From: Hwanghaeella grinnelliae
Lineage (GTDB): Bacteria > Pseudomonadota > Alphaproteobacteria > UBA8366 > Aestuariispiraceae
DNA: 64,000 nt
Reading direction: 5' to 3'
NCBI RefSeq assembly: GCF_004005845.1
Contig: NZ_SADE01000001.1
Location: 1,488,001-1,552,000, forward strand
Shown here: in pieces, positions 42,740-64,000 of the stretch
Layout: the number at the start of each line of letters is the position of its first letter
Numbering within the stretch: position 1 is the first letter of the stretch
The notes under the pieces: generated by a model
Seen by the model: only the letters and a program-made list of their open reading frames with translations
Database searches by the model: none
Told to the model about the DNA's origin: nothing
Translations under genes and position numbers: made by a program

Positions 42740-42766
42740 ACTCACGCTAAAGAACGGTGGATTTAA

Positions 42767-45473: not shown

Positions 45474-45509
45474 CGCTGCAGACCCCCGATACTTTGAACG
45501 AGGCTTTTC

Positions 45510-47376: not shown

Positions 47377-48022
47377 AGATAAGCACGTGCCGACCCCGCC
47401 CCTTGACCCGAATGCGGGAATGAGCCTCGCCGAACCCAGCGTGCCGTTGGTGGAGCGCAACCCGGAATCCGAACCCGGGCTGGGTGCTGAAATGGCGGAC
47501 TATACCCTGACGGTGCCGGAAGACCTGGCCGATATCGGCATAGAACCGGATACGGAACACCCGCTCTACAAGTCCGCCGCTGCTTGGGCGCGGGAGCGTC
47601 AATTGTCCCAGCACGACTTCGACGAATTGGCGGCCGGATTCTATCGAAACTTGGCAGAAGATGCGAAGCGCGATCAGGAATCCGAGCAGGCGGAACGCAA
47701 GTCTTTCATCGATGCTTTCGCGCCGGTGGCCATGCAGGGGCGGGACGATGATGCCGCCTTGGAGGCCGCGCGCCGCAACGCACGGCCGGTTGTTGACTGG
47801 GCGGCGGGTCTTCTTGCCCCGGCCATTCGTCAGAACCCGGACCTGGGTCAGATGCTTGAGGAAGTCTTCTCCTTCGCCGATGGGGTTGCGCTGATGCGGG
47901 CCGTAAAATCCGCGATCGGGGAAAAGACGCCGGGCCCGCAGCCGACGCCGTCGGGCATGCCCAAACCGCGTTCCGCCGAGGAAGTGCTCTACGGCGCCAC
48001 CACGCCCGCCCGAGGCCTATGA
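47369..48022 (+). CDS. Probable capsid scaffolding protein
   Basis: 217-aa acidic, helix-rich protein located between portal and major capsid, the standard place for scaffold genes. It has the sequence VPEDLADIGIEPDTEHPLYK, a charged coiled-coil middle (NLAEDAKRDQESEQAERKSF), and a proline-rich, basic C-terminus (SGMPKPRSAEEVLYG), which in podovirus scaffolds contacts the coat. Identification rests on position and composition. Confidence 0.7.
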   Translation: MNRDKHVPTPPLDPNAGMSLAEPSVPLVERNPESEPGLGAEMADYTLTVPEDLADIGIEPDTEHPLYKSAAAWARERQLSQHDFDELAAGFYRNLAEDAKRDQESEQAERKSFIDAFAPVAMQGRDDDAALEAARRNARPVVDWAAGLLAPAIRQNPDLGQMLEEVFSFADGVALMRAVKSAIGEKTPGPQPTPSGMPKPRSAEEVLYGATTPARGL

Positions 48023-48099
48023 CGTACATGGCGTCTGTGACGCAAAGGGTCCTCTGATGGGCGCTCTTTCGGATACTGATTTCAACCAAGGAGTAAAAG

Positions 48100-49104: not shown

Positions 49105-49151
49105 GTGTCGCCTTCCAATACCCTCGATCCCTTTTTCCAAGGAGTGAATGC

Positions 49152-49550
49152 ATGATCCTCGATAGCGAATTGCTGCTGTCCGACGGCCAGGAAATCACCG
49201 CGACGGCCGCATCGGACGACTTCATCGACTTCGGCTCTAACCGCGATGTGGGGCCCGGCACGCCGGTGCCGCTGCTGATCCAGGTCGCTTCCGATTTCAG
49301 CGACATGGACGACCTGACGGTCGATATCCAGACCAGTGGCGACCCGACCTTCAGTGCTGGTGTGAAGACCCTGGCCAGCATGACTGTGCCCGTCGCCGAC
49401 CTGGTGCAGGGCTATCAGTTCCCCGTCGGCCATCTGCCGAACCATTGCCGGCGGTATTTGCGGCTGAACTATACGGTCGGCACGCCGGGCGCCTCGCCGG
49501 GCGGCGCGATTACGGCGGGTATCGTCTGGGGCGTTCAGACCAACCGTTGA
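49152..49550 (+). CDS. Bbp16-like capsid cement protein
   Basis: 132-aa beta-rich protein resembling the cement protein of Bordetella phage BPP-1. It opens MILDSELLLSDGQEITATAA and SDDFIDFGSNRDVGPGTPVP, and ends with RYLRLNYTVGTPGASPGGAI then TAGIVWGVQ. Cement proteins clamp coat subunits from outside after expansion (family knowledge). An ATG four bases upstream, out of frame, was ignored. Confidence 0.87.
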   Translation: MILDSELLLSDGQEITATAASDDFIDFGSNRDVGPGTPVPLLIQVASDFSDMDDLTVDIQTSGDPTFSAGVKTLASMTVPVADLVQGYQFPVGHLPNHCRRYLRLNYTVGTPGASPGGAITAGIVWGVQTNR

Positions 49551-49657
49551 CGGTTTGGACGCTTCCGGGGCCGCCGGAGGGGGAAGCGATCCTCCGCCCC
49601 CTCCGGCACCCGAGCACCGCTTTCCATCCGTAAATCTCATCACCCTGGGAGGGCCTG

Positions 49658-50245
49658 ATGGCCGTATCCGATATTGCGCTTTGCGGCGCCGCCCTTATCC
49701 GTTTGGGCGCGGAACCGATCACCGCTTTCGAGGAAGGCACCGCCGAAGCGGATATCGCCGGCGCGCTCTATCCCATCGTACGGGACGGGTTGCTCAGCGC
49801 CTATCCGTGGAGCTTCGCCACCGCGCAACGCGCTTTGGCCCAGTTGTCCGGCGTGCCGGTCGCCGACTTCGCCTTCGCCTATCCATTGCCGCCGGATTTC
49901 CTGCGCGCGCTTTCCCTGGGCCACGGGGCGCGGGGACAAACCGTGCCCGCCGGGCGCGGCGCGGAATACCGGATCCATGAGCGGCGCATTCACACGAATG
50001 TGGAAATGCCGGTGCTGACCTATGTTTTCCGCCCGGCCGAAAGCGGGTTCCCGCCTTATTTCGACAAGGCGCTGACCGACAAGCTGTCGGCTGAATTCTG
50101 CCTGCCGATCACCGAGAACACCGCCCGCGCCGACCTGCTGCAGAAACTGGCCGGGCAAAGCTTCCAACAAGCCAAGACCGCCGACGCCCAGGGACAATCG
50201 CCGGGGCGGATCGAGGACTTCGCCCTGATCGACGCGCGGGGTTGA
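49658..50245 (+). CDS. T7 gp11-like tail tubular protein A / head-tail adaptor
   Basis: 195 aa after a GGGAGG ribosome site. The N-terminus VSDIALCGAALIRLGAEPIT and the YPIVRDGLLSAYPWSFATAQ segment are typical of the tail tubular A family that joins portal to nozzle. It ends two bases before the nozzle gene start. It is intact. Confidence 0.85.
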   Translation: MAVSDIALCGAALIRLGAEPITAFEEGTAEADIAGALYPIVRDGLLSAYPWSFATAQRALAQLSGVPVADFAFAYPLPPDFLRALSLGHGARGQTVPAGRGAEYRIHERRIHTNVEMPVLTYVFRPAESGFPPYFDKALTDKLSAEFCLPITENTARADLLQKLAGQSFQQAKTADAQGQSPGRIEDFALIDARG

Positions 50246-50247
50246 TC

Positions 50248-52215
50248 ATGGTGGCGCGCACACATGTCACACAGTTCAGCTTCGACAAGGGCATCATCGA
50301 CGAGGACCTGCTGGGCCGCCGCGACATCAAGGCCTATCCGGGCGGTCTGCGGCAGGCGAAGAATATGATCGGCGTCATCGGTGGACCGATATCGCGCCGG
50401 GGCGGGCTGGCCTTTGTCGCTGAGCTACCCTCGTCGGCGGGGGACGGCGCGCGGCTGGCGGCCTTTCACTTCCGGCTGGAGCAAATCTATCTGCTGGCCT
50501 TCCTGGACGAAACAGCGCGGATCTATAAGGACGACGCGCTGCAGGCGGAACTGGCCATGCCCTATGGCGGGGCGCAGCTGGCGGCACTGGATTTCGACCA
50601 GTCGCTCGACACCATGCTGCTGACACATGAGGAGGTCGAGCCCAAGCAGTTGCAGCGCCAGGGATCCCACAGCGACTGGGCGCTCAACCCCATCGCCTTC
50701 CGGAACCTGCCGACGCATCCGTTTAGCGGCCCGACCGCGGGCCAGGCCACGCCGAGCGGTACGACCGGCGCGGTGACGGTGACGAGCACGGCCGAGGATT
50801 TCACCGTCGCGGCGGTGGGCGATGTGGTGCGCCTCAATGGCGGGCGCATCACGATCACAAGCATTACAGGCGATACCGAGGTTGCTGGGACAACGCAGGA
50901 GGATTTGGACGATACGAAGGTCGCGGAGGCCGGGGCCTGGAGTGTCGAGCAACAGGCCTGGTCCGACGCAAAGGGTTATCCCCGGTCTGTCCATCTGGAC
51001 GGCAACCGGTCCTTCTGGGGCGGGTCCAAGGACTTGCTGCAAAGGGTCTGGGGGTCGGCCTCCGGCGGGGTGGACCTGTTCGACTTTTTCGAAACCAAGG
51101 ACCGCCTGGACGATGAATTCGTCGAGGACGATCTGGTAGGCAGTCAGGTGAACGCGGTGTCCCATATCCATGCGCTGGGCGATCAGTTCTTTTTCACCTC
51201 CGGCGGGGTCTTCGTGAACCGGGTGACAGATGACAGTCCGGTGACGGTCGAAAACTTTCACCCGCGCAAGCATTTCCCGACCCCCATCGCGCCCGTCAAA
51301 CCGGTGGCCAGCGATGGCGCTGTGGTCTGCGTCACCGCCGACGGGGCGGGCCGCGCCGTGGGTTGCGCGGAAGTCGTCTTCGACGTCGGCAGCGATGGCT
51401 ATATCGCGAGCGACCTGAATATCCTGTCGGCCAGCGTGATGCGGGAACCGGTGGATATGGCGGCCCGTGCGTCTGACGGTGTGCGGGGCGCGCATCACCG
51501 CTTCGTGGTGAACACGGATGGCACGGTCGCGGTGCATCATTCCCTGCGTCGGCAGGAGGTCAGCGGCTGGACCCTATGGGAAAGCGCCGGTCTATCGGCG
51601 GATGACGCGGTGCTGAAAGTCGCCGTCGTCGGGAATACGCCGTATTTCCTGGTCCGCCGGACGATCGACGGGGCGACGCGTTACTTCATCGAAAAACACG
51701 CGCTGGACCGCATGTTCGACAGTTCGGTGAAGGCACGTTTCCAGGAACCGAGCGATACGCTGGACGGATTGGACCATCTGGAAGGGTTGCAGGTGCAGGT
51801 CTTCGCCGATGGCGCTTTGCGCGACCCGGCCGTCGTCACCGATGGCACGGTCGCGGTGACCGATGGCGGCGCGGCCTTCCCGGCCATGGAGGTCGAGGCC
51901 GGCATGCCTTTCGATTGGGTCGTCGAACCATTGCCGGTGGAAGCCCAGATCGCGGAGGGCACCCTGGTCGGTCAGAAACACCGCCTGATCGCGGTCACCC
52001 TGGAACTGAAAGACGCCTATCCCTTCGAGGTGAACGGGCGACCGGTCAATTTCCGCCGCTTCGGGGAATTCCGGCTGGACGAGGCGCCGAAGCCGTTCAG
52101 CGGGCGTAAGCGTCGGCGTTTCCTGGGGTGGAACCGCGGGCAAGGGGCGAGTTTCACCGCGTCGGGAACCTTGCCTGCGACCTTCCTGTCGGCGGTCGCG
52201 GAAGTCGGCCAATAA
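50248..52215 (+). CDS. T7 gp12-like tail tubular protein B (nozzle)
   Basis: 655 aa from the ATG at 50248 (a TTG at 50242 is also open). The family opening is ARTHVTQFSFDKGIIDEDLL, with GRRDIKAYPGGLRQAKNMIG and GPISRRGGLAFVAE. The body has long beta-rich repeats, and the ending MPFDWVVEPLPVEA matches the usual gp12-like C-terminal fold. It forms the tail tip with the gp11-like adaptor. It is intact. Confidence 0.87.
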   Translation: MVARTHVTQFSFDKGIIDEDLLGRRDIKAYPGGLRQAKNMIGVIGGPISRRGGLAFVAELPSSAGDGARLAAFHFRLEQIYLLAFLDETARIYKDDALQAELAMPYGGAQLAALDFDQSLDTMLLTHEEVEPKQLQRQGSHSDWALNPIAFRNLPTHPFSGPTAGQATPSGTTGAVTVTSTAEDFTVAAVGDVVRLNGGRITITSITGDTEVAGTTQEDLDDTKVAEAGAWSVEQQAWSDAKGYPRSVHLDGNRSFWGGSKDLLQRVWGSASGGVDLFDFFETKDRLDDEFVEDDLVGSQVNAVSHIHALGDQFFFTSGGVFVNRVTDDSPVTVENFHPRKHFPTPIAPVKPVASDGAVVCVTADGAGRAVGCAEVVFDVGSDGYIASDLNILSASVMREPVDMAARASDGVRGAHHRFVVNTDGTVAVHHSLRRQEVSGWTLWESAGLSADDAVLKVAVVGNTPYFLVRRTIDGATRYFIEKHALDRMFDSSVKARFQEPSDTLDGLDHLEGLQVQVFADGALRDPAVVTDGTVAVTDGGAAFPAMEVEAGMPFDWVVEPLPVEAQIAEGTLVGQKHRLIAVTLELKDAYPFEVNGRPVNFRRFGEFRLDEAPKPFSGRKRRRFLGWNRGQGASFTASGTLPATFLSAVAEVGQ

Positions 52216-52237
52216 GTTTGGGAAAAAGGAGAGTGTG

Positions 52238-52768
52238 ATGGGATCGGGTGCTGGAAAGGTGATTTTGCCCTTGATGTCGCTGGCCGCCGCGCCGATGACC
52301 GGCGGCGCAAGTTTGGCGGGGCTGGGCGGTATAAGCGGTGTGGGGACGGCGGCGGGGCTCGCAAATGCGGGGATCGGCCTGCTGAGGGACCGCAGCCGGG
52401 CCCGGTCCGAGGAGGCTGCGACGGCGGCCGAGATTCAATCGACCCGCACCGACAAATTGCTGGGCGAATTAGGCTTGGCCGAACAACGGATTGAGGCGGA
52501 AAAGCGCCGCGCCCGGGACTTGGCCGCGATCGCCAATAGCGGCCGGTCGGGGGCAAGCGCCAAGGCCGGGCTGGCCGGCGCCGCGGACCGGGACAATCAG
52601 GCGGTCTTCGCTTCGCTCGCCGGGCGTCAGGTGGCGTTGGACAGCCGCGCCCGCAGCCGCATCGCGGCTTTGCGCCGACGGTCCCGTAGCGGCGCGACGG
52701 ATCGGGCCTTCGGCCTGCTCGACGATGTCCGGGACATCGGCGGAATACTGAACGGCGCGTCTTCCTAA
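52238..52768 (+). CDS. Probable internal virion or tail-associated protein
   Basis: 176 aa from an ATG after AAAAGGAGAG; a GTG one codon upstream is also open. It has a hydrophobic glycine-rich start (GGASLAGLGGISGVGTAAGL) and then long charged helices (ATAAEIQSTRTDKLLGELGL, AEQRIEAEKRRARDLAAIA). Its position after the nozzle and its composition fit short internal virion or ejection proteins of T7-like phages. Larger ejection proteins equivalent to gp15 and gp16 are missing. Confidence 0.65.
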   Translation: MGSGAGKVILPLMSLAAAPMTGGASLAGLGGISGVGTAAGLANAGIGLLRDRSRARSEEAATAAEIQSTRTDKLLGELGLAEQRIEAEKRRARDLAAIANSGRSGASAKAGLAGAADRDNQAVFASLAGRQVALDSRARSRIAALRRRSRSGATDRAFGLLDDVRDIGGILNGASS

Positions 52769-52803
52769 TACACACTCCCTTTACAAAACGAACGGGAAAT
52801 CTC

Positions 52804-54378
52804 ATGGCCAGCGAGCATATCAAAATCGGCGATGTCACGCCCAGGGTGCAATATGCCGGCGACGGCGTTCAGACCCAGTTCGGGTTTTCATTCCCGATTT
52901 TCGAAAATGATGATCTGGAAGTTTATCTGGGGGTATCCGAGACGCCGGAAATGACCGGGTATTCGACAGAAGGGGCAGGGGACAGCGCTGGCGGACTGGT
53001 GACCTTCGACACCCCGCCCGGCACCGGCGTCACGGTGACGCTGTTACGCAATGTCGCGATCAAGCGCACCACTGACTTCTCGGAATCCGGCGATTTCCGG
53101 GCCTCGGTCATCAACAACGAGCTGGACCGACTGACCGCCGTGGCGCAGCAATTGTCGACCTTGATCGGCCGTTCGGTCCGCCTCGCTGAAACCGACGCGG
53201 CGGGCGCGGTTCAACTGCCGCCCGCCAATCTGCGGGCCTCGAAACTGGCGGCTTTCGATGCATCGGGCGATCTGGTCGCGGCGTCGCCGGTGGCGAATGT
53301 GTCGTTGATTTCCACCTTCATGGAAGGCGTCGTGCTCGCCGCCAATGCGGATGCCGGGCGTTCGCTGCTGAATGCCCAGGCGCAAAGCGATGTGTTGGAC
53401 GATATCGCCGCGCTGACCCCGGCGGAAGGCGACGCGCTGACTTTCGACGGCACGCACTGGACCGCGGCCCGCACGGTGAAACGATCTGAAATCCGCCGCC
53501 TGGCCCTCGACGTTGCCGCGCTGAAAGGCGACCGGGAAAACATGGTGGACGGCATCGCCGATCCCTTCGCCGACGAAACCGACCTGGACAACGCGGCCTC
53601 CACCAACGAGGCCCACGACGTGGCCGGCGCCTTCTTTGCAGGGTCGCTGACCTATTCGGCGGACGAGACTGGATCAGGCACGATCTTGGCCAGTGAGGAG
53701 ACGGCAAAGGCAAACCTGTTTGACGACGACACCGGGACCCTATGGACATCGCTGACCTATGCGCAAGGCACGGACTTCGTTGGGTATGACTTCGGTGACG
53801 GCAACGATATCGAAATCCGCCGTGTGCGGCTGTTTCAGAAGACCGCCAACTACCTTGAAGCCGTTAAAGTTCAGTACTCCGACAATGGGGCCGATTGGAC
53901 CGATGCGCTGACCGCGACGGGACTAGGCGCCAACTCCTTCGACGATATTGACGTGCCCGCGACCGAGCCGCACCGCTACTGGCGGCTTCTGTCCAACGCG
54001 GCGGTGACGGGCGGGGCCAACTGGGCGGTGCATGACGTGGAAATGCTCAGCGCCATATCGGGCGACATGACCCTGGTGTCGGTTGCCTTTACCGCCGATG
54101 CCCAACCCGACACCGCGTTGCTTCACATCCAGGCGGTCGGGAACGACGCCTTCACCCTCAACACCGACCTGATCGGCAAGGTCAGCCGCGACAATGGCGC
54201 GACCTGGACCACGGCGGTCTTGGCCGCGGCGGGTGTGCTGGGGGACGGGACGACGATTTACGAGGCAACCGGCATCGACATTTCCGGCCAGCCGTCCGGC
54301 ACGGATATGCGCTACCGCATCGAAACCGACCACGCCAAGGATATCGAGATCCACGGCGTGGTTCTGAAATGGGGCTGA
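52804..54378 (+). CDS. Tail fibre protein with T7-type N-terminus and discoidin-like domain
   Basis: 524 aa. The N-terminal 150 residues resemble the T7 gp17 attachment domain (ITPRV-like VTPRVQYAGDGVQTQFGFSF, then GVTVTLLRNVAIKRTTDFSE). A coiled-coil shaft region (about 215-270) follows, then a discoidin/F5-8-C-like carbohydrate-binding domain (about 275-420: NLFDDDTGTLWTS, GYDFGDGNDIEIRRVRLF, HRYWRLLSN). A final beta-sandwich region closes it. The fibre probably binds host surface sugars. Confidence 0.82.
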   Translation: MASEHIKIGDVTPRVQYAGDGVQTQFGFSFPIFENDDLEVYLGVSETPEMTGYSTEGAGDSAGGLVTFDTPPGTGVTVTLLRNVAIKRTTDFSESGDFRASVINNELDRLTAVAQQLSTLIGRSVRLAETDAAGAVQLPPANLRASKLAAFDASGDLVAASPVANVSLISTFMEGVVLAANADAGRSLLNAQAQSDVLDDIAALTPAEGDALTFDGTHWTAARTVKRSEIRRLALDVAALKGDRENMVDGIADPFADETDLDNAASTNEAHDVAGAFFAGSLTYSADETGSGTILASEETAKANLFDDDTGTLWTSLTYAQGTDFVGYDFGDGNDIEIRRVRLFQKTANYLEAVKVQYSDNGADWTDALTATGLGANSFDDIDVPATEPHRYWRLLSNAAVTGGANWAVHDVEMLSAISGDMTLVSVAFTADAQPDTALLHIQAVGNDAFTLNTDLIGKVSRDNGATWTTAVLAAAGVLGDGTTIYEATGIDISGQPSGTDMRYRIETDHAKDIEIHGVVLKWG

Positions 54379-54382
54379 GAAG

Positions 54383-54646
54383 ATGAGCGCGACACGGATA
54401 AGGGAAAACCGCCCGAAAACCGACTTGGAAAAGGTCTATGAGAAACGCCGCCGTGCCTATAAGGGCGCAGTTCAGGCGGTCAAGGGCGTTGCCATGGATG
54501 AAACCGCCAATATCGGCTTCGTGTTGGATGCCGTCGTCGGTCAACTGGCCGCCGCGATCGCGGCCGGCGACATAACAGCGACCCCCGAAATGACCGATCT
54601 GATAACCCGGTTCCTGGCGGTCAAGACCGCTTTCCCGAAACCGTGA
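54383..54646 (+). CDS. Small phage protein, unknown function
   Basis: 87-aa basic-then-hydrophobic helical protein (TDLEKVYEKRRRAYKGAVQA, then FVLDAVVGQLAAAIAAGDIT). It sits 4 bp after the tail-fibre gene. It may be a tail-fibre accessory or chaperone by position only. Confidence 0.6.
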   Translation: MSATRIRENRPKTDLEKVYEKRRRAYKGAVQAVKGVAMDETANIGFVLDAVVGQLAAAIAAGDITATPEMTDLITRFLAVKTAFPKP

Positions 54647-54676
54647 GTTCCTCACCGATTAAAGAAGGATTGGACG

Positions 54677-54973
54677 ATGCCTGAAGACTTGAAATTCAAC
54701 GGCTGGCTGGCCGAGCGGGATAACGCCCATATGCTTTCCGCCCCGCCGGTGCGGCACCAAGCCGTCACGCTAGGCGGCGGCGATGTAAGCTTTGATGCGG
54801 CCGACCCGCCGCGCGTTCTGTTCATCGGCGGGACCGGCGATGTGACGGTGGAAGACATGAACGGCGATGCGGAAACCTATACGGTCGCCGCGGCGCCGTA
54901 CGAGTTGGCCGGCTTCTTCACCAAGATCGTCGCCGCCACGACCGACGCAACCAAAATCATCGCGCGGTGGTAG
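54677..54973 (+). CDS. Small phage protein, unknown function
   Basis: 98-aa beta-rich protein (QAVTLGGGDVSFDAADPPRV, LFIGGTGDVTVEDMNGDAET, TKIIARW ending). Proteins with this spd_gapC-like opening and IxARW ending are common near phage tail genes. The function is unknown. It ends 4 bp before the next tail gene. Confidence 0.62.
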   Translation: MPEDLKFNGWLAERDNAHMLSAPPVRHQAVTLGGGDVSFDAADPPRVLFIGGTGDVTVEDMNGDAETYTVAAAPYELAGFFTKIVAATTDATKIIARW

Positions 54974-54977
54974 TGAG

Positions 54978-56471
54978 ATGACGATATATGGTCCGAGTAT
55001 GAGCTTGATGCGTCGGCGTCCCTTTGTGGGCGCCGGTGGTGGCGGGGGCAACCTTACTGAAAACATCACAGTGTTGGCGGCAGCGGACAGCACCTTCGCC
55101 GGTGTCGGTGCGGGGGATGGGACGGGTATCAACCCGGAAATGACAGGCGCTCGCCCATTCAGCCCTCCCGTTCAGATGGGAAATCGCCTGCTGGCGCGTG
55201 GCATTGCGGCCCAAGCTGAAACGGTGTGCCAAGAGAATGGTAACGGCGCTGTGACTACGTGGAACGAATACCGCAGCGATATCGTATCGACCGGTGGATT
55301 CGCTTCATCCAGCCGCAACCCGACCATCGGCGGTTTTGTCCCGCGCATGACATCCAGTTCGCAGAGCATCACTTTTACGCCAGGGACAAACGTCGATACT
55401 TTGAGGTTTGGCAATATCCGGGCATCGGCTTTCGGAAAGTTGGGCGTGAAGGTCGATGGCGGTGTGGCCATTGAGTATGACCAGAATGCGGGTTCTAACG
55501 GTTACGAGATTGAGGTTATCGACGGCCTTTCTCTCGGCGCTCACGACTTTGAGTTTACACAAATATCGGGGAGCGCTCACGGTCCTGGGTTTATCCATGC
55601 TTACAACAGTACGGTTCCAGCCTTCCAGATTTTTAATGCTGGAGTCAGAAACACGACTATTCAGTACTGGCTAGGAACGACATACCCGTCGTCAACCTTA
55701 GCGGCGCTAGACGTATTGACCCCGCACGTCGTCATCCTGAAGCACTTCATAAACAACACCCGAAGCGGTGGTGCTGGGACAAGCTATGAGGATATGAAAA
55801 CCCACTACAAAACTATTTTCGAAAAGTGTGGGACCATCGGCGCTCGTGTTTTGTTAGTCATCCCACATGACATCTCGGGCTACGGAGCCGGATGGGACTC
55901 GGCAACCGCTGTAACATTCTTCGAAGACTTGTTGGCTAACGAAATCCCCACGTACACAGGCATCCCTGCTGCCGCGATTGTTAATGTTCCGCAACTGCTT
56001 TTTGAGGCGGGGCTTTCTGGAACTACTGAGCCTGCGACTTACACGGTGCTAGACACCAACGGATACATGCATGACGGCTTACACGCCAAAAGGGCCGTGC
56101 AAGCCGTAGAAGGTGCTGGCATGGGCGATGCGCTGATCACGATGTTTGGTCTCACTGCTGCAACTGCGGTTCCGACTTACTCCGTCACTGATCTTACATT
56201 CTCAGTCGCAGCCGCTACCGCAGCGGGCGCTACCCCCCAAGGTAATGGCGACCAAGACACAGGCACATTCTCCGCTGATGCTGACTTCGCGACGATTGAC
56301 GGCGGAACAGATGCAGATCACTGGCAAATCGTTGACGGGTACAAGCTGTCTCCTTCGGCTGCGGGTGATGCGGCGAACCTTTCCGGCGGGTCCGGCGGGA
56401 CCTACACACTGACAGTTACCTACGTGAAAGATTGCGTTCCGCAGCGAGTTACTGTCACGATCAACACATAA
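54978..56471 (+). CDS. Tail fibre/spike protein with SGNH (GDSL-like) hydrolase domain
   Basis: 497 aa. After a glycine-rich start, LAAADSTFAGVGAGDG places a candidate nucleophile at Ser38 (block I, normally GDS). HDGLHAKRA gives Asp366 and His369, matching the block V DxxH of SGNH esterases. A carbohydrate-binding-like insertion lies between (about 115-220) and an Ig-like repeat domain at the end (about 395-497). Such virion esterases deacetylate host surface polysaccharides (family knowledge). Composition is markedly more AT-rich than the rest of the module from about 55.2 kb, pointing to recent exchange. An open frame extends upstream to 54867 but lacks support. Confidence 0.72.
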   Translation: MTIYGPSMSLMRRRPFVGAGGGGGNLTENITVLAAADSTFAGVGAGDGTGINPEMTGARPFSPPVQMGNRLLARGIAAQAETVCQENGNGAVTTWNEYRSDIVSTGGFASSSRNPTIGGFVPRMTSSSQSITFTPGTNVDTLRFGNIRASAFGKLGVKVDGGVAIEYDQNAGSNGYEIEVIDGLSLGAHDFEFTQISGSAHGPGFIHAYNSTVPAFQIFNAGVRNTTIQYWLGTTYPSSTLAALDVLTPHVVILKHFINNTRSGGAGTSYEDMKTHYKTIFEKCGTIGARVLLVIPHDISGYGAGWDSATAVTFFEDLLANEIPTYTGIPAAAIVNVPQLLFEAGLSGTTEPATYTVLDTNGYMHDGLHAKRAVQAVEGAGMGDALITMFGLTAATAVPTYSVTDLTFSVAAATAAGATPQGNGDQDTGTFSADADFATIDGGTDADHWQIVDGYKLSPSAAGDAANLSGGSGGTYTLTVTYVKDCVPQRVTVTINT

Positions 56472-56762
56472 GAGTTGCGTGTATTGATGATAATGAATAA
56501 TACTTTTCATACATATGGAAAACGACACAAACAAACTTACGATACACGTATTGCTAAAGTTGCTTGGCGGCTTGTTGGCAGTGTTTGTCGTTTTATCACC
56601 ACTTCTTTTGTTGGACAGCTGAACTGGCCAAATGGCGAGGGCGGAATATGGCGTAACCCGCGCCATAGAAACTGCTTAACGTGCGCTCAATGCCGGCGCA
56701 GTGGCCTTTATGATCGCCGATACTCCGTAGTGGTCGCGGCGCTGGTATGGAGACTGTAACCC

Positions 56763-57113
56763 ATGCCGCAACCATCCCAACACGTCTTGATCGATCTTGA
56801 CGCCCGCGCCAGTGCGGCGGCGGCGCATTTGAAGATTGTGGAAACGGCGGGACAGATCGACACGTTGCGGGCCATGGCGGAAAAACATGACAAAGCCGAT
56901 GAAGAACGCACCATCCGTCTGGAACGCGAAATCGAGCAAGTCGGCAAAAAGATCGACAGCCTTTCCGAAAATGTAAGCGGTGCGGTAGGCCGAGTGCACG
57001 CGCGGATCGATGCCTTGGTAAGGGCCGCGTTAACCGGGGCGATGGCGACCGCGATCGCCCTGGCCGGCGCCATCCTTTACGAATTGTGGACGCTGGCCCA
57101 AGCGGGCGGTTGA
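56763..57113 (+). CDS. Coiled-coil single-helix membrane protein, possible holin accessory
   Basis: 116 aa. A long charged coiled coil (TLRAMAEKHDKADEERTIRL, EREIEQVGKKIDSLSENVSG) is followed by one C-terminal transmembrane helix (ALTGAMATAIALAGAILYEL). This layout resembles XhlA-type hemolysin/holin partners. It precedes the lysozyme and 3TM holin, which supports a role in lysis. Confidence 0.68.
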   Translation: MPQPSQHVLIDLDARASAAAAHLKIVETAGQIDTLRAMAEKHDKADEERTIRLEREIEQVGKKIDSLSENVSGAVGRVHARIDALVRAALTGAMATAIALAGAILYELWTLAQAGG

Positions 57114-57230
57114 GACGGATATTACAAAATCTGTCCGTCACGGTTCGTCTGCTGATCGTAGCCGCCTCAGGAGCGAGGGGAGGCGGATGTTGGGGGATTG
57201 CCGGCTTGGCACCACGATAGGGAAAAGACG

Positions 57231-57641
57231 GTGGATCGTGGATTGCTCAAGATCGACTTGGCGCGCGACGAGGGCATGAAGCTTTCGCCCTATACCGATA
57301 CGGTCGGCAAGGTGACGATCGGCGTTGGCCGGAACCTCGATGATGTGGGGATTTCGGAAACCGAAGCCCTGGTCATGCTGGACGCGGATATCGACCGCGC
57401 CATGGAAGACCTGCGCCGCAATGTGCCGTCGGTATTCGACCGCCCGGAACCGGTTCAGCGGGCCTTGGTGACTTTGTGTTTCAACATGGGGTGGCCGCGC
57501 CTGTCGGGATTCAGGCGGATGGGGGCGCATCTTGAATTGAACGAATACGGCCCTGCGGCCGATGAAGCCCTGAACAACAAATGGGCGCGGCAGGTGGGCA
57601 ATCGTGCCCGACGCCTCGCCGGCTTGATACGGGAAGGTTGA
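57231..57641 (+). CDS. Phage lysozyme (GH24, T4-type endolysin)
   Basis: 136 aa from a GTG at 57231. Peptidoglycan muramidase with the catalytic Glu14 (ARDEG), Asp23 (YTDTVG) and Thr29 (VTIGVGRN), the same spacing as T4 lysozyme Glu11-Asp20-Thr26. The C-terminal RALVTLCFNMG segment is also typical. There is no signal peptide, so it depends on a holin. It ends 3 bp before the holin gene. Confidence 0.93.
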   Translation: MDRGLLKIDLARDEGMKLSPYTDTVGKVTIGVGRNLDDVGISETEALVMLDADIDRAMEDLRRNVPSVFDRPEPVQRALVTLCFNMGWPRLSGFRRMGAHLELNEYGPAADEALNNKWARQVGNRARRLAGLIREG

Positions 57642-57644
57642 GCA

Positions 57645-58217
57645 ATGATTTTACCGGTTATCGCCGGATTGATTTCCGCGGCCCCGGCCTTGATCGGCCT
57701 TTTTGACAATGGGGATGACAGCACGGTTTCGAAGGTCGCCAAACTGGCGTCCGGCATTGCGCGGGGCGTGACCGGAACGGACGATGACGGCAACGCCCTG
57801 GCCGCGCTGCAGGCAGACCCGGAACTGTTGTTGGAATACCAGCGCCAGACGGCGCAGCGGGCGATATCGCTGTATCAGGAAGAAACCAAGCGCCTGCTGG
57901 CGGTGAACGAAACCATCCGCGCCGAAGCGGCCAGCGCGGACCCCTATGTCCGCCGCATGCGGCCCACCATGGGCTATGCACTGATTTTCAGTTGGACCAT
58001 GACCATGGCGGCGGTGGTTTATGTGATCGTCACCGATCCGGCGGCGGCCTCGACCGTTATCATCGCCTTGGCCGACCTGTCGATCATGTGGTCGGTCGCG
58101 CTCTCGGTATTGGGCCTCTACGTCTATAAACGCAGCGAGGATAAGAAACCGACCACGGACGCTGAGAATGGCTTGAGCGTGCTGGGGCGCATGGCCGGGA
58201 AACTCATGGCCCGGTGA
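57645..58217 (+). CDS. Three-helix holin of the gene-transfer-agent release type
   Basis: 190 aa. It has an N-terminal hydrophobic helix (LPVIAGLISAAPALIGLFDN), a cytosolic helical section, the conserved AEAASADPYVRRMRPTMGYA, and two further helices (FSWTMTMAAVVYVIV and LSIMWSVALSVLGLYVYKRS). This matches the GTA_holin_3TM family used for particle release. It is directly downstream of the lysozyme and is the last gene of the module. Confidence 0.85.
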   Translation: MILPVIAGLISAAPALIGLFDNGDDSTVSKVAKLASGIARGVTGTDDDGNALAALQADPELLLEYQRQTAQRAISLYQEETKRLLAVNETIRAEAASADPYVRRMRPTMGYALIFSWTMTMAAVVYVIVTDPAAASTVIIALADLSIMWSVALSVLGLYVYKRSEDKKPTTDAENGLSVLGRMAGKLMAR

Positions 58218-58244
58218 CGCGGACGGGGCTGTCGTTGCCGCCGT

Positions 58245-58334
58245 CCGGATCACCAAGGTTGCCCGGATCACCAAGGTTGCCCGGATCGCCAAGGTTGCCC
58301 GGATCGCCTTGCTTGCCCGGATCGCCAGGGTTGC
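58245..58334 (-). repeat. Five 18-bp tandem repeats encoding collagen-like Gly-X-Y on the minus strand
   Basis: Unit CCGGATCACCAAGGTTGC starts at 58245, 58263, 58281, 58299 and 58317. The first copies are nearly identical and the later ones diverged. On the minus strand, in frame with and just after the RidA stop, they read (G-N-L-G-D-P)n. Confidence 0.88.
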
Positions 58335-58347
58335 CCGTGTCTTCCCG

Positions 58348-58749
58348 TCACGCCGGAAGGGCGAGGACCGCTTCGACTTCGAACAACATGTCTTCCAATG
58401 CCAGGCGGTGAACCGGCACCAGGGTTTGGGCCGGCAGGTGATCGCCGAATGCGGCCATCAGAGTCCGCGTCATCGTGGCCAGTTTACTTTCGTCGTACCC
58501 GACCGGGTAGGTGGTCAGCTTGATGACGTCGCCCGGCGCGCCGCCCGCGGCCTCGATCACCGCGAGCAGGTTTCGATAGGCTTGTTTCACCTGGGCCTCG
58601 AAGCCTTCGGGCAGGCTTCCGTCCAACAATTCCCCGCCTTGGCCTGAGATAAAGACCAGCGTGGCCTGGCTGTCGACTTTCACGGCATGGCTATAGCCGT
58701 TTGGCGCGGGATCATAGAGGGCCGGCGGGTTGATAATGGCGGTATCCAT
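58348..58749 (-). CDS. RidA-family (YjgF/YER057c/UK114) protein
   Basis: 133-aa enamine/imine deaminase-like protein. Its start MDTAIINPPALYDPAPNGYS follows the pattern of the family, with VFISGQGGELLDGSLPEGFE, QVKQAYRNLLAVIEAAG, and the C-terminal VPVHRLALEDMLFEVEAVLA containing the usual ExxA. The Arg105-type catalytic residue of classic RidA appears replaced, as in several paralogous groups. The open frame extends upstream to 58947 without support. Directly after its TGA stop the same frame stays open for 47 sense codons encoding a collagen-like repeat. Confidence 0.88.
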   Translation of the reverse strand: MDTAIINPPALYDPAPNGYSHAVKVDSQATLVFISGQGGELLDGSLPEGFEAQVKQAYRNLLAVIEAAGGAPGDVIKLTTYPVGYDESKLATMTRTLMAAFGDHLPAQTLVPVHRLALEDMLFEVEAVLALPA

Positions 58750-59061
58750 GGATGTCGTCCTTTGTGTTTCAGGGGGTGGACCCGCGCGCGGACCGGTGCG
58801 CACAGCGCCCGGATACACGCGGTTTCCCATGAGTGACGTTTCGGCGGCGCTTCGTGTGACACGGTTCGGCGGGAAAAACGGTGCCGGGCCTGCAGGGGGA
58901 GAGGGGGCGAGTAGAGGCGGGCCGGAAGAAAAACGGCGCCGGCCCAAGCAATTGCGCCGCTGTTAAGGAGAAAGTAATACTCGTCGGCGATGTTGCATGG
59001 ATCGGCGGCATGGGGGCATGGGGATGCTGGACCGGACAAAAAATACGGTGGGGTTTCCCGC
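58750..59061. other. Divergent intergenic region
   Basis: 312 bp between the RidA start and the first binding-protein gene. It presumably contains both promoters. Overlapping open frames are read on both strands, but none has a convincing start. No repeat or RNA was recognised. Confidence 0.45.
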
Positions 59062-60186
59062 ATGCGGTTCCTTTGCGCGTTCTTTCTGTACTCATTGATT
59101 GCCTTTGCGACGATGACGGCGGCCTTTGGCGCTGAGTGCCGGACGCCGAAGGTATTGATGTCCTTGCCGGACAGAGCCGATGACCCGTTTTGGGGCCCCT
59201 ATGCTCGGTTCGCGGAAGCGGTGGCGGAAAGCTTGAATGTGGAGCTTACCGTCGACTATTCGATCGCCAACGACCGATCCAATTATAGGGATCGTTTGCA
59301 GGCTGCTCTCTCCGGTCGGTCCAAGCCCGACTATGTCGCGGTCTTCCCCTATTTCGGGGCTGTCGAGACCTTGATGGAGGAATCCGCAGCGCATGGTGTT
59401 TCCATCATCACCTTGAATTCGGATCTTGGGGCCGGGGACCGGAAAGCGGTCGGCTATCCCCGGGAGCGATACAAGAACTGGATATTGCAAAGCCTGGCCG
59501 ATGACGAAAACGCCGGGTTTAAATTGGCACAGGTGGTGGCAAGGGCCGGGCGTGAGCGTTTCAAACTGGCGGAAAGAGATACGGTGTCGATCACTGCCCT
59601 GGGCGGAAATCAGTTGGCCGGCGCCAGCTTGTACCGGCGCGACGGGCTTGAACGTTTTGTGCGCATGTCCGGCGGAGCGGCGGCGATAAACCAGTTCGTC
59701 TTCACGGATTGGAGCTATGAACGCGGCAAAGAAGTGGCGGTGGGACTGATCCGTCGCTACCCCAATACGCAAGGCGTATGGGCCGCAAACCTGCCCCTGG
59801 GGCTCGCGGTTGCCGATGCCTTAAATGCGCTGGCACCCAATCATCGGTTACCCGCCATCGGAATGGTCAGCGGGCCGTTTGACGACAGGGCCTTGGACGG
59901 TATCGACGAGGGGAAGTTCGCCGCTGTCGTCGGCGGGCATTTCCTGGAAGGCGGGATTGTCCTGGCCCTTTTGCTGGACCATTTCAACGGTTTGGATTTC
60001 GTCGACGATATGGGCACTGCGCTGCGTGTGCCGTTCAAGACCGCGGACCGAAAGAATGTAGCCGAACTGCGGGCCGTGATGGGCGACCGGAACTGGCTTG
60101 GCATGCCCTTCCGGCATTTATCGAAATGCTACAACGGCGGGCTCGATTATTACGACTTCAACCTGGACACCATTTTCCGTCACTAG
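59062..60186 (+). CDS. Orphan periplasmic binding protein (Peripla_BP_4-like), array copy 1
   Basis: 374-aa exported sugar/AI-2-type binding protein. The signal peptide MRFLCAFFLYSLIAFATMTA ends near AFGAEC. The mature part begins CRTPKVLMSLPDRADDPFWG. Fold landmarks are YVAVFPYFGAVETLMEES, the hinge ITALGGNQLAGASLYRRDGL, and AVVGGHFLEGGIVLALLLDH. The C-terminus reads GMPFRHLSKCYNGGLDYYDF. The N- and C-terminal cysteines are conserved in all complete copies and may form a disulphide. No transporter or sensor partner is adjacent. It is the first unit of a tandem array. Confidence 0.85.
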   Translation: MRFLCAFFLYSLIAFATMTAAFGAECRTPKVLMSLPDRADDPFWGPYARFAEAVAESLNVELTVDYSIANDRSNYRDRLQAALSGRSKPDYVAVFPYFGAVETLMEESAAHGVSIITLNSDLGAGDRKAVGYPRERYKNWILQSLADDENAGFKLAQVVARAGRERFKLAERDTVSITALGGNQLAGASLYRRDGLERFVRMSGGAAAINQFVFTDWSYERGKEVAVGLIRRYPNTQGVWAANLPLGLAVADALNALAPNHRLPAIGMVSGPFDDRALDGIDEGKFAAVVGGHFLEGGIVLALLLDHFNGLDFVDDMGTALRVPFKTADRKNVAELRAVMGDRNWLGMPFRHLSKCYNGGLDYYDFNLDTIFRH

Positions 60187-60333
60187 GACGCGGCCTGGAA
60201 GCCCTTCGCAGCGGGTTTGCCGATGACAATCACCGCAAGCTTATGTATGAATTAGTTAATTAAAAAGTGCGCATGGATTCCGGACGGTTGGAATGCATGT
60301 CGTATGGCCGGTCCGCCAAGCTTGGAGAAGTAA
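60187..60333 (+). repeat. Array spacer, copy A
   Basis: This interval is recognisably repeated at about 63350-63480. Shared stretches include GGTTTGCC-ATGACAATC, an AT-rich patch ending AAAGTGC, a CCGGTC/CCGGTTGGCC stretch, and TTGGAG before the next gene. The matching order shows that the duplicated unit included the intergenic DNA and the upstream region of copies 2 and 4. Confidence 0.75.
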
Positions 60334-60402
60334 ATCGTTTTTGACATCCGCCGTATAGCGATCCGCCCTTCCGCGGCCGTTCTTGTAACGGCGCTGTGTG
60401 CC

Positions 60403-61581
60403 GTGGGGGTGGGCGCGTCCGCTGCGCAAGCCTGTAAATCTCCATCGGTCGTGATGTCTCTTCCCTCGACCCTGAAGTCACCTTTCTGGGGGCCGTATGC
60501 GGAAATAGCCGAACGCGCCGCGCGCGAGATGGACATCCGCCTTCGAATAACCAGGTCCACCGTCAGTGACCGGTCGGGTTACATGTCGCAAGTGCGGGAA
60601 GTCTTGACCGGAAACGCTCCCACAGCGGAAGAACCGCCGGACTATCTACTCGTCTTTCCCTATTTGGGTGCCGTTCCCGAGGTGATGGATCTGACCGAGC
60701 GTTTGGGCGTGCGCGTAGTGACCTTGAATTCGGCGCTGGGAAGGGATGACCAGGAAATCGTCGGCCGGCCCAGGGGGCGATACAAGCATTGGATTTTGCA
60801 GAGTTCGGCTGATGACGAAAAGGCGAGCTATGACTTAGCCGCGGCGCTTGACCGGGCGGCGCGCGCACGGTTCGCCTTGGACGACGGCGTCGTCGTCAGA
60901 ATGAACGCGATCGGCGGGGATCAAATTGCAGGGTCAAGCCTGAGGCGGCGCGAGGGTCTGGAACGGTTCATCCGGGCCGCGGCCGGCCGTGTTGCGTTGA
61001 ACCAGTTCGTATTTACGGATTGGGGGTACAATCGCGGTCGGGAAGTCAACGAAGGCATGATTCTCCGCCATGCGCGGACCCACGCGGTTTGGACGGCCAA
61101 CCTACCTTTGGGGCGGGCGGCGGCGGATGGATGGGATGCGTGGGCCGATACGTCCGCTGAGGCATCCGCCGATACGTCCGCCAGTACGTCCGCTAATACA
61201 TCCGCCAATACATCCGCCAATACATCCTCTGGGGCTGGATCGCGGCCGGTTGTCGGCTTATTTAGTGGCGCCTTTGACAGGGATGCCCAGGAAGGCTTGG
61301 AAAAGGGGCGGTTTTCCGCCGTCGCGGCCGGGCATTTTATCGAAGGCGGAATTTTGTTGGCGCTGCTGCTGGATCATTTCAACGGGTTCGACTTTGCCGA
61401 CGAAATAGGAACCGAACTCAAGATTCCCTTCCTCGTGGCGGGGCCGGAGGATCTTGAGGAAATCCAAAGGTTCATGAATCAATGGTCGGGTTCTGACAGC
61501 AAGTACAGCGGGTTTTCCAAGTGTCTTACGCGCGACCGGGAAAAGGATCGTTTAGACATAGGGAAGACCCTGGGCCAATAG
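60403..61581 (+). CDS. Orphan periplasmic binding protein, array copy 2 (start codon abnormal)
   Basis: The mature protein begins CKSPSVVMSLPSTLKSPFWG. The family landmarks YLLVFPYLGAVPEVMDLTER, GGDQIAGSSLRRREGLERFI, and AAGHFIEGGILLALLLDHFN are intact. The only canonical in-frame start is the GTG at 60403, which cuts the signal peptide to about 12 residues. A full signal peptide (FDIRRIAIRPSAAVLVTALC) is encoded upstream in frame, but back to the TAA at 60331 there is only ATC at 60334. A loop near residues 250-275 contains (A-x-T-S)n from 12-bp repeats. The C-terminus keeps the SKC cysteine. It is functional only if translation starts atypically. Confidence 0.78.
   Translation: MGVGASAAQACKSPSVVMSLPSTLKSPFWGPYAEIAERAAREMDIRLRITRSTVSDRSGYMSQVREVLTGNAPTAEEPPDYLLVFPYLGAVPEVMDLTERLGVRVVTLNSALGRDDQEIVGRPRGRYKHWILQSSADDEKASYDLAAALDRAARARFALDDGVVVRMNAIGGDQIAGSSLRRREGLERFIRAAAGRVALNQFVFTDWGYNRGREVNEGMILRHARTHAVWTANLPLGRAAADGWDAWADTSAEASADTSASTSANTSANTSANTSSGAGSRPVVGLFSGAFDRDAQEGLEKGRFSAVAAGHFIEGGILLALLLDHFNGFDFADEIGTELKIPFLVAGPEDLEEIQRFMNQWSGSDSKYSGFSKCLTRDREKDRLDIGKTLGQ
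61146..61233 (+). repeat. 12-bp minisatellite inside array copy 2
   Basis: About seven diverged tandem copies of a 12-bp unit (GCCGATACGTCC / GCCAATACATCC). The last units are nearly identical. They are in frame and encode Ala-Asp/Asn/Ser-Thr-Ser repeats in a surface loop absent from the other copies. Confidence 0.85.
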
Positions 61582-61590
61582 GGCGGTTCC

Positions 61591-61762
61591 GCATGCCGCC
61601 CGCGACCGGGATGGGGTTGGTGGGGCCTTTGACGACAGCGACTTGGATGGCGCCGAGGATGGCAGATTTGCTTCCGTCGTCGGTGGGCATGCCCTTCCGG
61701 TATTTACCGAAATGCTACAACGGCGCGCTCGATTACTACGACTTCAGCCGGGACAGCGTGTT
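61591..61762 (+). pseudogene. C-terminal remnant of a copy-1-like binding-protein gene
   Basis: The DNA encodes, in shifting frames, PPATGMG (compare PAIGMVSG in copy 1), then PFDDSDLDGAEDGRFASVVG (compare PFDDRALDGIDEGKFAAVVG), then GMPFRYLPKCYNGALDYYDF (compare GMPFRHLSKCYNGGLDYYDF). Relative to copy 1 the 164 bp between the two GGCAT sequences (59936-59940 and 60100-60104) are missing, leaving one GGCAT at 61686-61690. This is a microhomology deletion. The fragment lies in the upstream extension of the copy 3 reading frame. Confidence 0.8.
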
Positions 61763-61931
61763 TCCCCGTAAAAACGACCCCTTGGAACAATTTGTCACCC
61801 TGCCGATTTGGTGTTCGGGTTTCTCGGCATTGGGTGCTAGAGTACCGCTTTGGGGGGATGGTTTGTTCGTTGGCATAGATATGAGCCCGGCCCGTTTCCT
61901 GTGTTTCGGGGGCTGTCTGCGTGGCTTCAGT

Positions 61932-63068
61932 ATGCAGGTCGCCCTTCTATCACGGATCTTCATTGCGTTTGGTGTGCTCGCCGCGTTCGGTGCAATCGAC
62001 GCCGGGGCGTTCGCGGGTGGCTGTACCTCGCCGACGGTTGTGATGATCGTGCCGGACCATGAGGAGAATACCTTCTGGGGCCCCTATACGCGATTTACCC
62101 GGGCCGCCGCCGCCGACCTCGGTATCGATCTTCGGCTGGTTTTCGCTGAGCCGAATGACCGTTTCGATTATCTTGAACGCTTTATCGAGGTTCAGGCCGC
62201 ATATCCGCCGGCCGACTATGTCGCCGTCTTCGCCTATTTCGCCGGCCTGCCACAGGTATTGGAACTGGCGCAACGGACAGGGAACAAGGTCGTCACCTTC
62301 AATTCCGGCATATCGGACACCGACCGGGTGATCGTCGGAACCCCTCGGACTCGCTTTTCGAACTGGATACTGCACAGCCAGGCGGCGGATCTGGAGGCCG
62401 GCCGTCTGCAGGCCAGCGCGATCGTCGGCCGGGCCCGGAAGATGTTCGGGTTGAGCAAGACCGAAACCGTCCGGGTTACGGCCTTGGGCGGCAATCTGAC
62501 GACCGGCGCAAGCCTTGAGCGGCGCGACGGGTTAGCGGCTTTCTTCAGTGCCGGCGACCTTCCGGAGACGGTGAACCAATTCGTTTTCGCCAATTGGGAT
62601 TATGAAAGAGGCTTCTATACCGCCAAGGGGCTGTTCCAGCGTTATCCGGAAACCCACGCGGTCTGGACGGCATCCTTCGATTTGGGACGCGCGGCGATCG
62701 ATGCCTGGCGGGCGGTCCGGCCCGGAAAACCCCTGCCCATCGTCGGCACGATCAGTGGCGGCTGGGACGCCAGGGCCTTCGAAATGATGGAGCGGAAAGA
62801 ACTGGATGTGGTTTTGGGCGGGCATTTCTCCGAAGGGGCCTGGCTGATGGCGCTGATCCAGGATTATGACAGCGGCCTGGATTTCATCGACGAGGTCGGC
62901 ACCGAGCTGTATTTCCCGCTGGAACTGGCGGGGCCGGGCAATTTTGAGCGGATTCGGGAGACCTTCCGGGTCCGGGATTGGGACCGGATCGACTTCAAGC
63001 GGCTATCGAAATGTCACCGCCCGTTGCTGGAGCGCTACGATTTCAGCCTGCGAAACTTGCTGCGTTGA
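61932..63068 (+). CDS. Orphan periplasmic binding protein, array copy 3
   Basis: 378 aa from the ATG at 61932. The signal peptide LSRIFIAFGVLAAFGAIDAG is followed by AFAGGC. The mature part starts CTSPTVVMIVPDHEENTFWG. Landmarks are YVAVFAYFAGLPQVLELAQR, ALGGNLTTGASLERRDGLAA and VLGGHFSEGAWLMALIQDYD, with the C-terminal FKRLSKCHRPLLERYDFSL. It is more diverged from copies 1, 2 and 4 than they are from each other. The open frame extends upstream to 61521 through the pseudogene remnant, so an automatic start call there would be wrong. An ATG at 61881 is an alternative start. Confidence 0.83.
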   Translation: MQVALLSRIFIAFGVLAAFGAIDAGAFAGGCTSPTVVMIVPDHEENTFWGPYTRFTRAAAADLGIDLRLVFAEPNDRFDYLERFIEVQAAYPPADYVAVFAYFAGLPQVLELAQRTGNKVVTFNSGISDTDRVIVGTPRTRFSNWILHSQAADLEAGRLQASAIVGRARKMFGLSKTETVRVTALGGNLTTGASLERRDGLAAFFSAGDLPETVNQFVFANWDYERGFYTAKGLFQRYPETHAVWTASFDLGRAAIDAWRAVRPGKPLPIVGTISGGWDARAFEMMERKELDVVLGGHFSEGAWLMALIQDYDSGLDFIDEVGTELYFPLELAGPGNFERIRETFRVRDWDRIDFKRLSKCHRPLLERYDFSLRNLLR

Positions 63069-63234
63069 GAAGGCGTCGCGGAAAGACACCCGAAAGCCAG
63101 ACGTATTGCGCTGTCCGCACGCAAGCCGTCCTGACGAGAGGCGCTCAGAGACAGTAGAGCCGCGCTCTATTCCCGGTTTGACCACCGTGTCGGGGCATAG
63201 CGCAGTCAGATCGCGCGCCTGTCTAGGGATCGGC
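63069..63234. other. Unassigned spacer between copy 3 and the second remnant
   Basis: 166 bp with no recognised gene or repeat. Together with the remnant at 63235-63467 it forms the roughly 400-bp gap between copies 3 and 4. Confidence 0.4.
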
Positions 63235-63467
63235 AGGATGCCTTTCCGGCATTTGTCGGAATGCCACAACGCGGCGGTGGATCATCACGACTTCGGTCCG
63301 GACATCATTTCTCCGCACCAGGGCATGGCCTTTCAGATCTTTACGGCAAGGTGGACCATGGTTTGCCCATGACAATCCCGGGCAGTTTAATTATATACCC
63401 CTCGCTAATATAAAGTGCATGATTTCCCGGCAGTCGGCATTTGATCTTTGCGGCCGGTTGGCCACGT
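63235..63467 (+). pseudogene. Second C-terminal remnant plus array spacer copy B
   Basis: 63238-63300 encodes RMPFRHLSECHNAAVDHHDF, a degraded match to the copy 1 C-terminus (GMPFRHLSKCYNGGLDYYDF) with the key Lys-Cys altered to Glu-Cys. It is followed by DNA matching the spacer after copy 1. The relic shows that another copy-1-type gene once lay here and was deleted except for its last 20 codons and the downstream spacer. Confidence 0.78.
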
Positions 63468-64000
63468 TTGGAGGAATGGATCTTTTTCGATATCCGCCCT
63501 ATCGCTGCCGTTCTTGTGACGGCCTTGTGCGCCGTGGGTCCGGCACCCGCTGCCGCCGTGCCGGCGTGTGAATCCCCATCGGTCGTCATGTCCTTTCCCA
63601 CGACCTTAAAATCACCTTTTTGGGGCCCCTATGCGGAAATCGCGGAAAGGGCCGCGCGCGACCTGAACATCCACCTTAAAATATCCGCTTCCACCGGCAA
63701 TAATCGGTCGGATTTCATGGCGCGTTTGAGGGATGACCTTACCGGTAAAACTCTACCGGGGAATGAACCGCCGGACTATCTGCTCGTCTTCCCATATTTT
63801 GGTGTCGTTCCTGAGGTGATGGAGTTGTCAGAGCGTCTAGGCGTTCGCGTGGTGACCTTGAATTCGGCAGTGGGAAGCCATGACCGGGAAACCGTCGGCC
63901 AGCCCAGAGGGCGGTACAAGAACTGGATTTTGCAGAGTTTCGCGGATGACGAACAGGCGGGCTATGAATTGGCCGCGGCGCTTGAGCGGGCGGCGCGTCA
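63468..64000 (+). CDS. Orphan periplasmic binding protein, array copy 4 (cut by window end)
   Basis: Close relative of copy 2: the mature part starts CESPSVVMSFPTTLKSPFWG and contains YLLVFPYFGVVPEVMELSER and GRYKNWILQSFADDEQAGYE. The signal peptide FDIRPIAAVLVTALCAVG is in frame with a TTG at 63468. The obvious ATG at 63476, which has GGAGG just upstream, is one base out of frame before a run of five T. The gene may therefore use TTG, slip at the T-run, or carry a start-proximal frameshift. The 3' part is outside the window. Confidence 0.75.
   Translation, partial: MEEWIFFDIRPIAAVLVTALCAVGPAPAAAVPACESPSVVMSFPTTLKSPFWGPYAEIAERAARDLNIHLKISASTGNNRSDFMARLRDDLTGKTLPGNEPPDYLLVFPYFGVVPEVMELSERLGVRVVTLNSAVGSHDRETVGQPRGRYKNWILQSFADDEQAGYELAAALERAAR

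Follow-up and report, generated by a model that had tools for sequence, protein, structure and literature searches.

Why should a bacterial genome carry four genes for type I periplasmic binding proteins (PBPs) head to tail, with neither a transporter nor a receptor encoded beside them? The window analysed here, a stretch of 64,000 nucleotides (positions 1488001-1552000 of contig C1, in a genome of 5.3 Mb and 7 contigs), raises this question at its right-hand end, where the first of the four genes (copies 1-4, or c1-c4) starts at 59062. The answer we favour, with a probability of about one half, is that the array copies are ligand presenters, by analogy with LuxP and TorT, for at least one receptor whose gene lies elsewhere. 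This answer draws on the family and fold of the proteins, the lack of any transporter seen locally, the signalling company kept by relatives in other genomes and residues particular to the array, as well as on a fifth paralog of the same genome that lies between two histidine kinases and on the divergence of copies 2 and 4. That the array helps the cell to sense rather than to feed is the more likely case, although not proven, and we favour sensing because relatives elsewhere often adjoin signalling proteins. Each copy would close on a small ligand in the periplasm and, rather than deliver that ligand to a permease of the ATP-binding cassette (ABC) type, would present its closed state to the periplasmic region of a receptor in the membrane, in the manner of LuxP with LuxQ and TorT with TorS. 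The receptor would be encoded elsewhere in the genome, and the scheme presumes that the copies are exported and that the ligand is something other than a classic sugar.

The head-to-tail arrangement of four binding-protein genes, first proposed in a sequence-only reading of the window, was borne out (Table 1), and all four frames are open over their full length. The Peripla_BP_4 cut-off was exceeded by copies 1 and 3; copy 2 and the partial copy 4 went unmatched at E 0.001, but share 38-47% identity with copies 1 and 3. NCBIfam gave a name to none of the four. The best solved relative is 3h75 from Pseudomonas fluorescens (E 1e-44 by profile), and a structure model of moderate confidence (mean predicted local distance difference test score, pLDDT, 64; four sequences) has the two-lobed type I PBP fold. 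VIA-align superposed the model on 3h75 with a root-mean-square deviation of 4.8 across 313 residues and a Z score of 23.6, a tie with several sugar PBPs that came within 1 of it; the other 49 structure matches listed had Z scores of 20.6-22.9 and were mostly sugar PBPs. Many sugar PBPs are named in the Foldseek and VIA lists, which does not fix the ligand.

Table 1. Coordinates of the array, its relics and its surroundings (window positions; ORF, open reading frame; aa, amino acids; nt, nucleotides).
Feature	Position	Strand	Evidence and remarks
Copy 1 (c1), type I PBP, 374 aa	59062-60186	+	Peripla_BP_4 53.9 bits (cut-off 35.1); 3h75 E 3e-32; start ATG 59062
Copy 2 (c2)	60334-61581, start uncertain	+	68% identical to c4; no own Pfam match for frame from 60403
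Copy 3 (c3), 378 aa, start inferred	61932-63068	+	Peripla_BP_4 43.1 bits (cut-off 35.1); basal in array clade
Copy 4 (c4), first part	63441-64000, on to 64631 (L010:5441-6631)	+	ORF and extended sequence
Relic of copy-1 C-terminal region, two pieces with internal deletion, between c2 and c3	61599-61765	+	Sequence self-alignment
tRNA-Pro relic: 38 nt of upstream flank and the gene's first 47 nt	63153-63237	+	84% over 85 nt, E 3e-19
Relic of copy-1 tail and c1-c2 spacer, running into c4	63238-63440	+	60103-61141 aligned with 63238-64275, 74.5%
RidA-like gene, between prophage and array (context)	58348-58947	-	PF01042 64 bits
Prophage-like region, upstream of array (context)	41762-58217		PHROGs: terminase, head-tail adaptor, major head, tail, endolysin, holin

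The array had also been expected to continue beyond the window, which is true only for the remainder of copy 4: in the sequence read past the window the array stops with the end of that copy at 64631 (L010:6631), and 120 bp after it begins an intact tRNA-Pro (GGG) gene at 64752-64828, beyond which the ORF list and Pfam place a convergent histidine kinase (HAMP-HisKA-HATPase). Reading the ORF lists by eye from the RidA-like gene at 58.35 kb as far as L010 position 20000, some 13 kb beyond the end of copy 4, revealed no ABC gene, Pfam having been run on only a few of these genes. The claim that no transporter accompanies the array is supported at both ends, including the array end itself, where a complete ABC operon had been named beforehand as the finding that would speak against it. 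No permease and ATPase of the kind that mark the solute-binding protein of an ABC transporter were thus seen beside the copies. They also lack the adjoining receptor gene of LuxP/TorT-type sensor PBPs, since the only receptor gene nearby is the convergent kinase across tRNA-Pro. Scans of the locus for consensus promoters and terminators gave counts within or below chance.

Relatives of the array are scattered across Pseudomonadota, a phylum name taken from named plasmid matches. At a threshold of E 1e-15, family members occur in 11 of 385 genomes of the class and 30 of 398 of the phylum (separate even draws that have some genomes in common and include the present one). The array type itself was absent from the 38 other genomes searched with copy 1, eight of which hold distant family members, and from one other genome of the genus, 13 of the family and 42 of the order, sets that overlap. 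Among the aligned outsiders, identity to an array copy peaked at 30%, and two pattern scans of genome contigs, which used short exact motifs to which only close relatives are visible, confirmed no relative. Distant matches on plasmids (18 records, 23-28% identity) are annotated as "ABC transporter substrate-binding protein" in 15 cases. A literature search on 3h75, and on PBPs with a diguanylate cyclase or sensor, found no paper on this PBP family.

The surroundings of these relatives were surveyed at 48 loci in other genomes, 47 of which were counted, the PBP of the remaining one (L075) having been missed by gene calling. GGDEF or histidine-kinase genes made up 15 of the 90 immediate neighbours, 4 of the 88 genes two places away and 3 of the 248 further out (immediate versus further-out neighbours, Fisher p 4e-7, with related genomes not independent), and 3 of 50 PBPs were fused to GGDEF or kinase modules. 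With such a gene adjacent or fused in 17 of the 47 loci, the suggested link of the family to sensing was upheld. Pfam, applied to 78 of the 90 neighbours, gave 10 GGDEF, 5 HATPase_c and 3 EAL matches among the 25 commonest of 111 families. The fusions include a PBP-GGDEF protein (L092) and a PBP-dCache-kinase-receiver protein (L093; its dCache match is below the curated cut-off), a chemoreceptor adjoins the PBP in L075, a histidine kinase carrying a TorS sensor domain is found in L099, and CHASE5 and GGDEF-EAL proteins are among the neighbours.

No transporter was recognised beside the relatives among those 25 commonest neighbour families; a single match could be hidden among the rarer ones. 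A motif scan of all called genes at the loci flagged two ABC ATPases, the adjacent one an ABC-F protein and not a transporter, the other five genes away from its PBP (L099). Because relatives' loci, too, have no recognised adjacent ABC transporter, being without one is normal for this PBP family. The statement that the array is not tied to an ordinary ABC system is accordingly correct as far as none was seen, but it sets the array apart in no way. What is unusual for the family is a fourfold expansion without a local receptor.

Several residues are derived in the array. The Asp of an A-N-D motif, present in 50 of 51 other family members, is replaced by L, L, F and P in copies 1 to 4, so that no array copy has the pocket Asp of RbsB-like sugar-binding PBPs. 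Six further positions at which 75% or more of the others agree are altered in all four copies (N96, G142, A222, A247, G249 and A300, copy 1 numbering), and core positions such as W44, W140, R192, W217 and G292-H293-F294 are retained. The observation that every complete copy keeps one N-terminal and one C-terminal cysteine was confirmed: Cys26 and Cys356 occur in 4 of 4 array copies and in 0 of 51 others (with gaps in nine at the first column and one at the second), and the two are likely to form a disulfide, as judged from the sequences.

Candidate partners were sought in the genome itself. The fifth paralog, at L011:6766-7950 on contig C3, lies between two histidine kinases, and a search for receptors resembling the sensor region of the C3 kinases returned only those two kinases and one weak match (E 9e-5). 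The histidine kinase next to tRNA-Pro was considered as a dedicated receptor and rejected: it is convergent, lies across the tRNA gene and has homologues where a family PBP was not found. Homologues at E 1e-60 occur in 5 of 13 other genomes searched, and because a search at E 1e-15 gave no family PBP in three of these relatives (G001, G002 and G004), we do not regard it as a dedicated partner.

If the partner is encoded elsewhere, it might also be a transporter. Uptake in trans, with the copies feeding one or more ABC permeases encoded at other loci and so broadening the range of solutes taken up, gains plausibility from the 33 BPD_transp_2 permease matches in the genome. One report (PMC5812351) describes Bug binding proteins in Bordetella that have likewise expanded as orphans without adjacent permeases. 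However, a search confined to the BPD_transp_2 family of permeases placed the nearest match some 26 kb past the array, and the relatives at the loci examined have no adjacent recognised ABC transporter; we therefore consider uptake unlikely.

Amino-acid identity is 68% between copies 2 and 4, the highest in the array and in line with the earlier description of these as a close pair, 47% between copies 1 and 4, 44% between copies 1 and 2, and 38-40% between copy 3 and the others. A maximum-likelihood tree built from 55 family members unites the array in a single clade with support 100/99 and the order c3,(c1,(c2,c4)), on a long branch (0.79), and the four copies therefore represent one lineage-specific expansion. 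Its traces remain in the DNA. A block of copy-1 tail, spacer and copy 2 (60103-61594) aligns with 63238-64644 in two pieces, with nucleotide identities of 74.5% (E 0) and 78.3% (E 2e-79), the split falling at in-frame 12-bp tandem repeats of copy 2 (61135-61230), which encode an insert rich in Thr, Ser and Ala, presumably within a surface loop. Between copies 2 and 3 lie two pieces of copy 1 (59851-59940 matching 61599-61690, E 4e-7; 60100-60178 matching 61686-61765, E 2e-23). Alignment thus verified the remnants of copy 1 that had been noted before copies 3 and 4, and the block and relics together support a duplicated and partly deleted unit of copy 1, spacer and copy 2.

A tRNA-Pro relic stands directly before 63238, with a 19-nt exact stretch across the gene start (chance expectation 0), and the duplicated block therefore reached from inside copy 1 into tRNA-Pro. 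By eye, a perfect 8-bp inverted repeat just upstream of the intact tRNA-Pro (64718-64740; L010:6718-6740) is degraded in the relic. We conclude that the array arose by tandem duplication with ends inside copy 1 and tRNA-Pro, followed by deletions. The simplest order would begin with c1-c2-relic-c3-tRNA-Pro, duplicate this stretch and then lose the copy 3 part from the right-hand unit.

Such a history would suit slow decay, in which the array is a duplicated leftover and some copies are already dead. Besides the two copy-1 relics and the tRNA relic, copy 2 has the 12-bp repeat insert and no standard start before its signal peptide. Its reading frame begins behind a TAA stop (60331), and the first ATG, GTG or TTG would remove the signal peptide, which, judged by eye, is clear in copy 1 and present in copy 2 only with an ATC start. 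That ATC, at 60334 (60331-60340 region), is preceded by a GGAG motif, and copy 4 carries one at the equivalent position, behind GGAGG (63468-63482 region). Copy 4 does not depend on the ATC, because in-frame TTG codons lie upstream (63441 and 63468). Either copies 2 and 4 both use a rare start codon, a possible non-canonical start, or copy 2 is not secreted.

The context shared by copies 2 and 4 argues against a fresh start loss in copy 2, and the open frames and divergence among copies argue against decay more broadly. By the Nei-Gojobori method the ratio of non-synonymous to synonymous divergence (dN/dS) is 0.34 for copies 2 and 4 at a dS of 0.59, and 0.26-0.44 for the remaining pairs, which at dS 1.3-2.0 come close to saturation. 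Among twelve 40-codon windows of copies 2 and 4, one reaches 1.31, which we do not read as positive selection. At an approximate set of pocket-like positions chosen by homology, differences for every pair except c2/c3 numbered 5/26 against 102/321 at the remaining positions for c2/c4, 5/26 against 183/322 for c1/c2, 7/26 against 171/321 for c1/c4, 10/26 against 195/322 for c1/c3 and 9/26 against 192/320 for c3/c4. The description of a diversifying set thus finds no support, as dN/dS is 0.26-0.44 for every pair and the pocket-like segments vary less than the rest. The copies have been retained mostly under purifying selection, with dN/dS well below 1 throughout, and decay appears improbable.

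The altered motif allows a further alternative, in which the copies have lost the usual small-ligand binding and act as ligand buffers or as periplasmic partners of other proteins. We take the A-N-D Asp to occupy the position of RbsB D215, an equivalence that depends on a motif alignment to the allose-binding protein and on the RbsB sequence, which weakens the case for repurposing. Repurposing is the least probable of the three alternatives, since W44, W140, R192 and other core positions are conserved, even though all copies have lost the Asp and changed six further conserved positions, and though D215A in RbsB weakens or cripples signalling with protein abundance kept, as reported in PMC5557919.

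The prophage-like region upstream of the array, which includes a repressor-like gene (41762-42619, judged by eye), raises the question of how the array reached this site. A minisatellite of 18-bp units occupies 58227-58355, just 3' of the holin-like gene. In the sole available congener (G001; 360 contigs, 7% contamination) tRNA-Pro (L142:8643-8720) is immediately preceded by the orthologue (L142:7945-8526) of the gene that occupies 40581-41096 in the window, and the same two genes are 23.6 kb apart here, with the prophage, the RidA-like gene and the array between them. The array therefore lies within a segment that either was inserted at this site or has been lost from G001. Prophage cargo was rejected as an account of the array, the PBP having no match in phage records and no confirmed relative in a scan of viral contigs. 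No exact repeat above 16 bp was found to link the stretch at 28.0-57.6 kb with that at 57.6-70.0 kb, and the window yielded no 3' fragment of tRNA-Pro. The tRNA relic suits a tandem-duplication joint better than an attachment (att) site because it comprises the 5' half and upstream flank and abuts copy-1 sequence. A cargo origin may still apply, as prophage and array share one segment missing at the congener's tRNA-Pro site.

Several observations weigh against the presentation of ligands to receptors. The array itself encodes no receptor, and its long branch means that its function may have shifted from that of its relatives. As many as 30 of the 47 loci have no GGDEF or histidine-kinase gene adjacent or fused to the PBP; in eight of these 30, sulfite-reductase and/or DUF2970 genes lie within two genes, and six adjoin rpoC. 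Seven loci from genomes of the same family (L024-L030) lie by rpoC, with ribosomal protein genes (named by eye) on the other side and the PBPs, distant relatives of the array, on the opposite strand; one of the seven (L028) also has a histidine kinase beside the PBP, and three carry tandem PBP pairs.

We nevertheless find presentation to a receptor in trans the best account of the array. A bolder version, which we regard as speculative and give long odds, would be that one lineage evolved a four-member sensory set beside a prophage at a tRNA site, abandoned sugar binding with loss of the Asp and gain of the Cys pair, and now uses the set to inform shared receptors in trans of several ligands or states. 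Many binding proteins would then serve a single receptor, in a compact and adjustable array. A PBP family mostly labelled as transport on plasmids appears to be often part of signalling circuits, and the transport label would mislead for this array. If the copies do share one receptor, bacteria would be able to broaden sensing by duplicating binding proteins and not receptors; otherwise the array is an ordinary tandem duplication.

An orphan sensor-type PBP is already known; what is new here, so far in one genome, is a four-gene tandem clade with no local receptor or transporter, an altered pocket motif and a Cys pair. The best match in both sequence and fold, the "periplasmic sugar-binding" protein 3h75, for which there is a structure only, aligns to near the C-terminus, but it is about 23% identical and retains the A-N-D Asp. 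The C3 paralog belongs to the same family and is 21-28% identical to the array copies; it differs in forming a separate clade, keeping the Asp, lacking the Cys pair and having kinases on both sides. The Bug/TctC expansions of Bordetella, presumably another class of PBP, resemble the array in that binding proteins have multiplied without adjacent membrane partners, but they are genome-wide sets and not a four-gene tandem array. LuxP-LuxQ and TorT-TorS are pairs of a type I PBP and a sensor kinase, in which a PBP can act without a transporter. They differ from the array in that it has no receptor gene of its own, and the likeness lies in its relatives, some of which are fused to or beside kinases, one of these with a TorS sensor domain.

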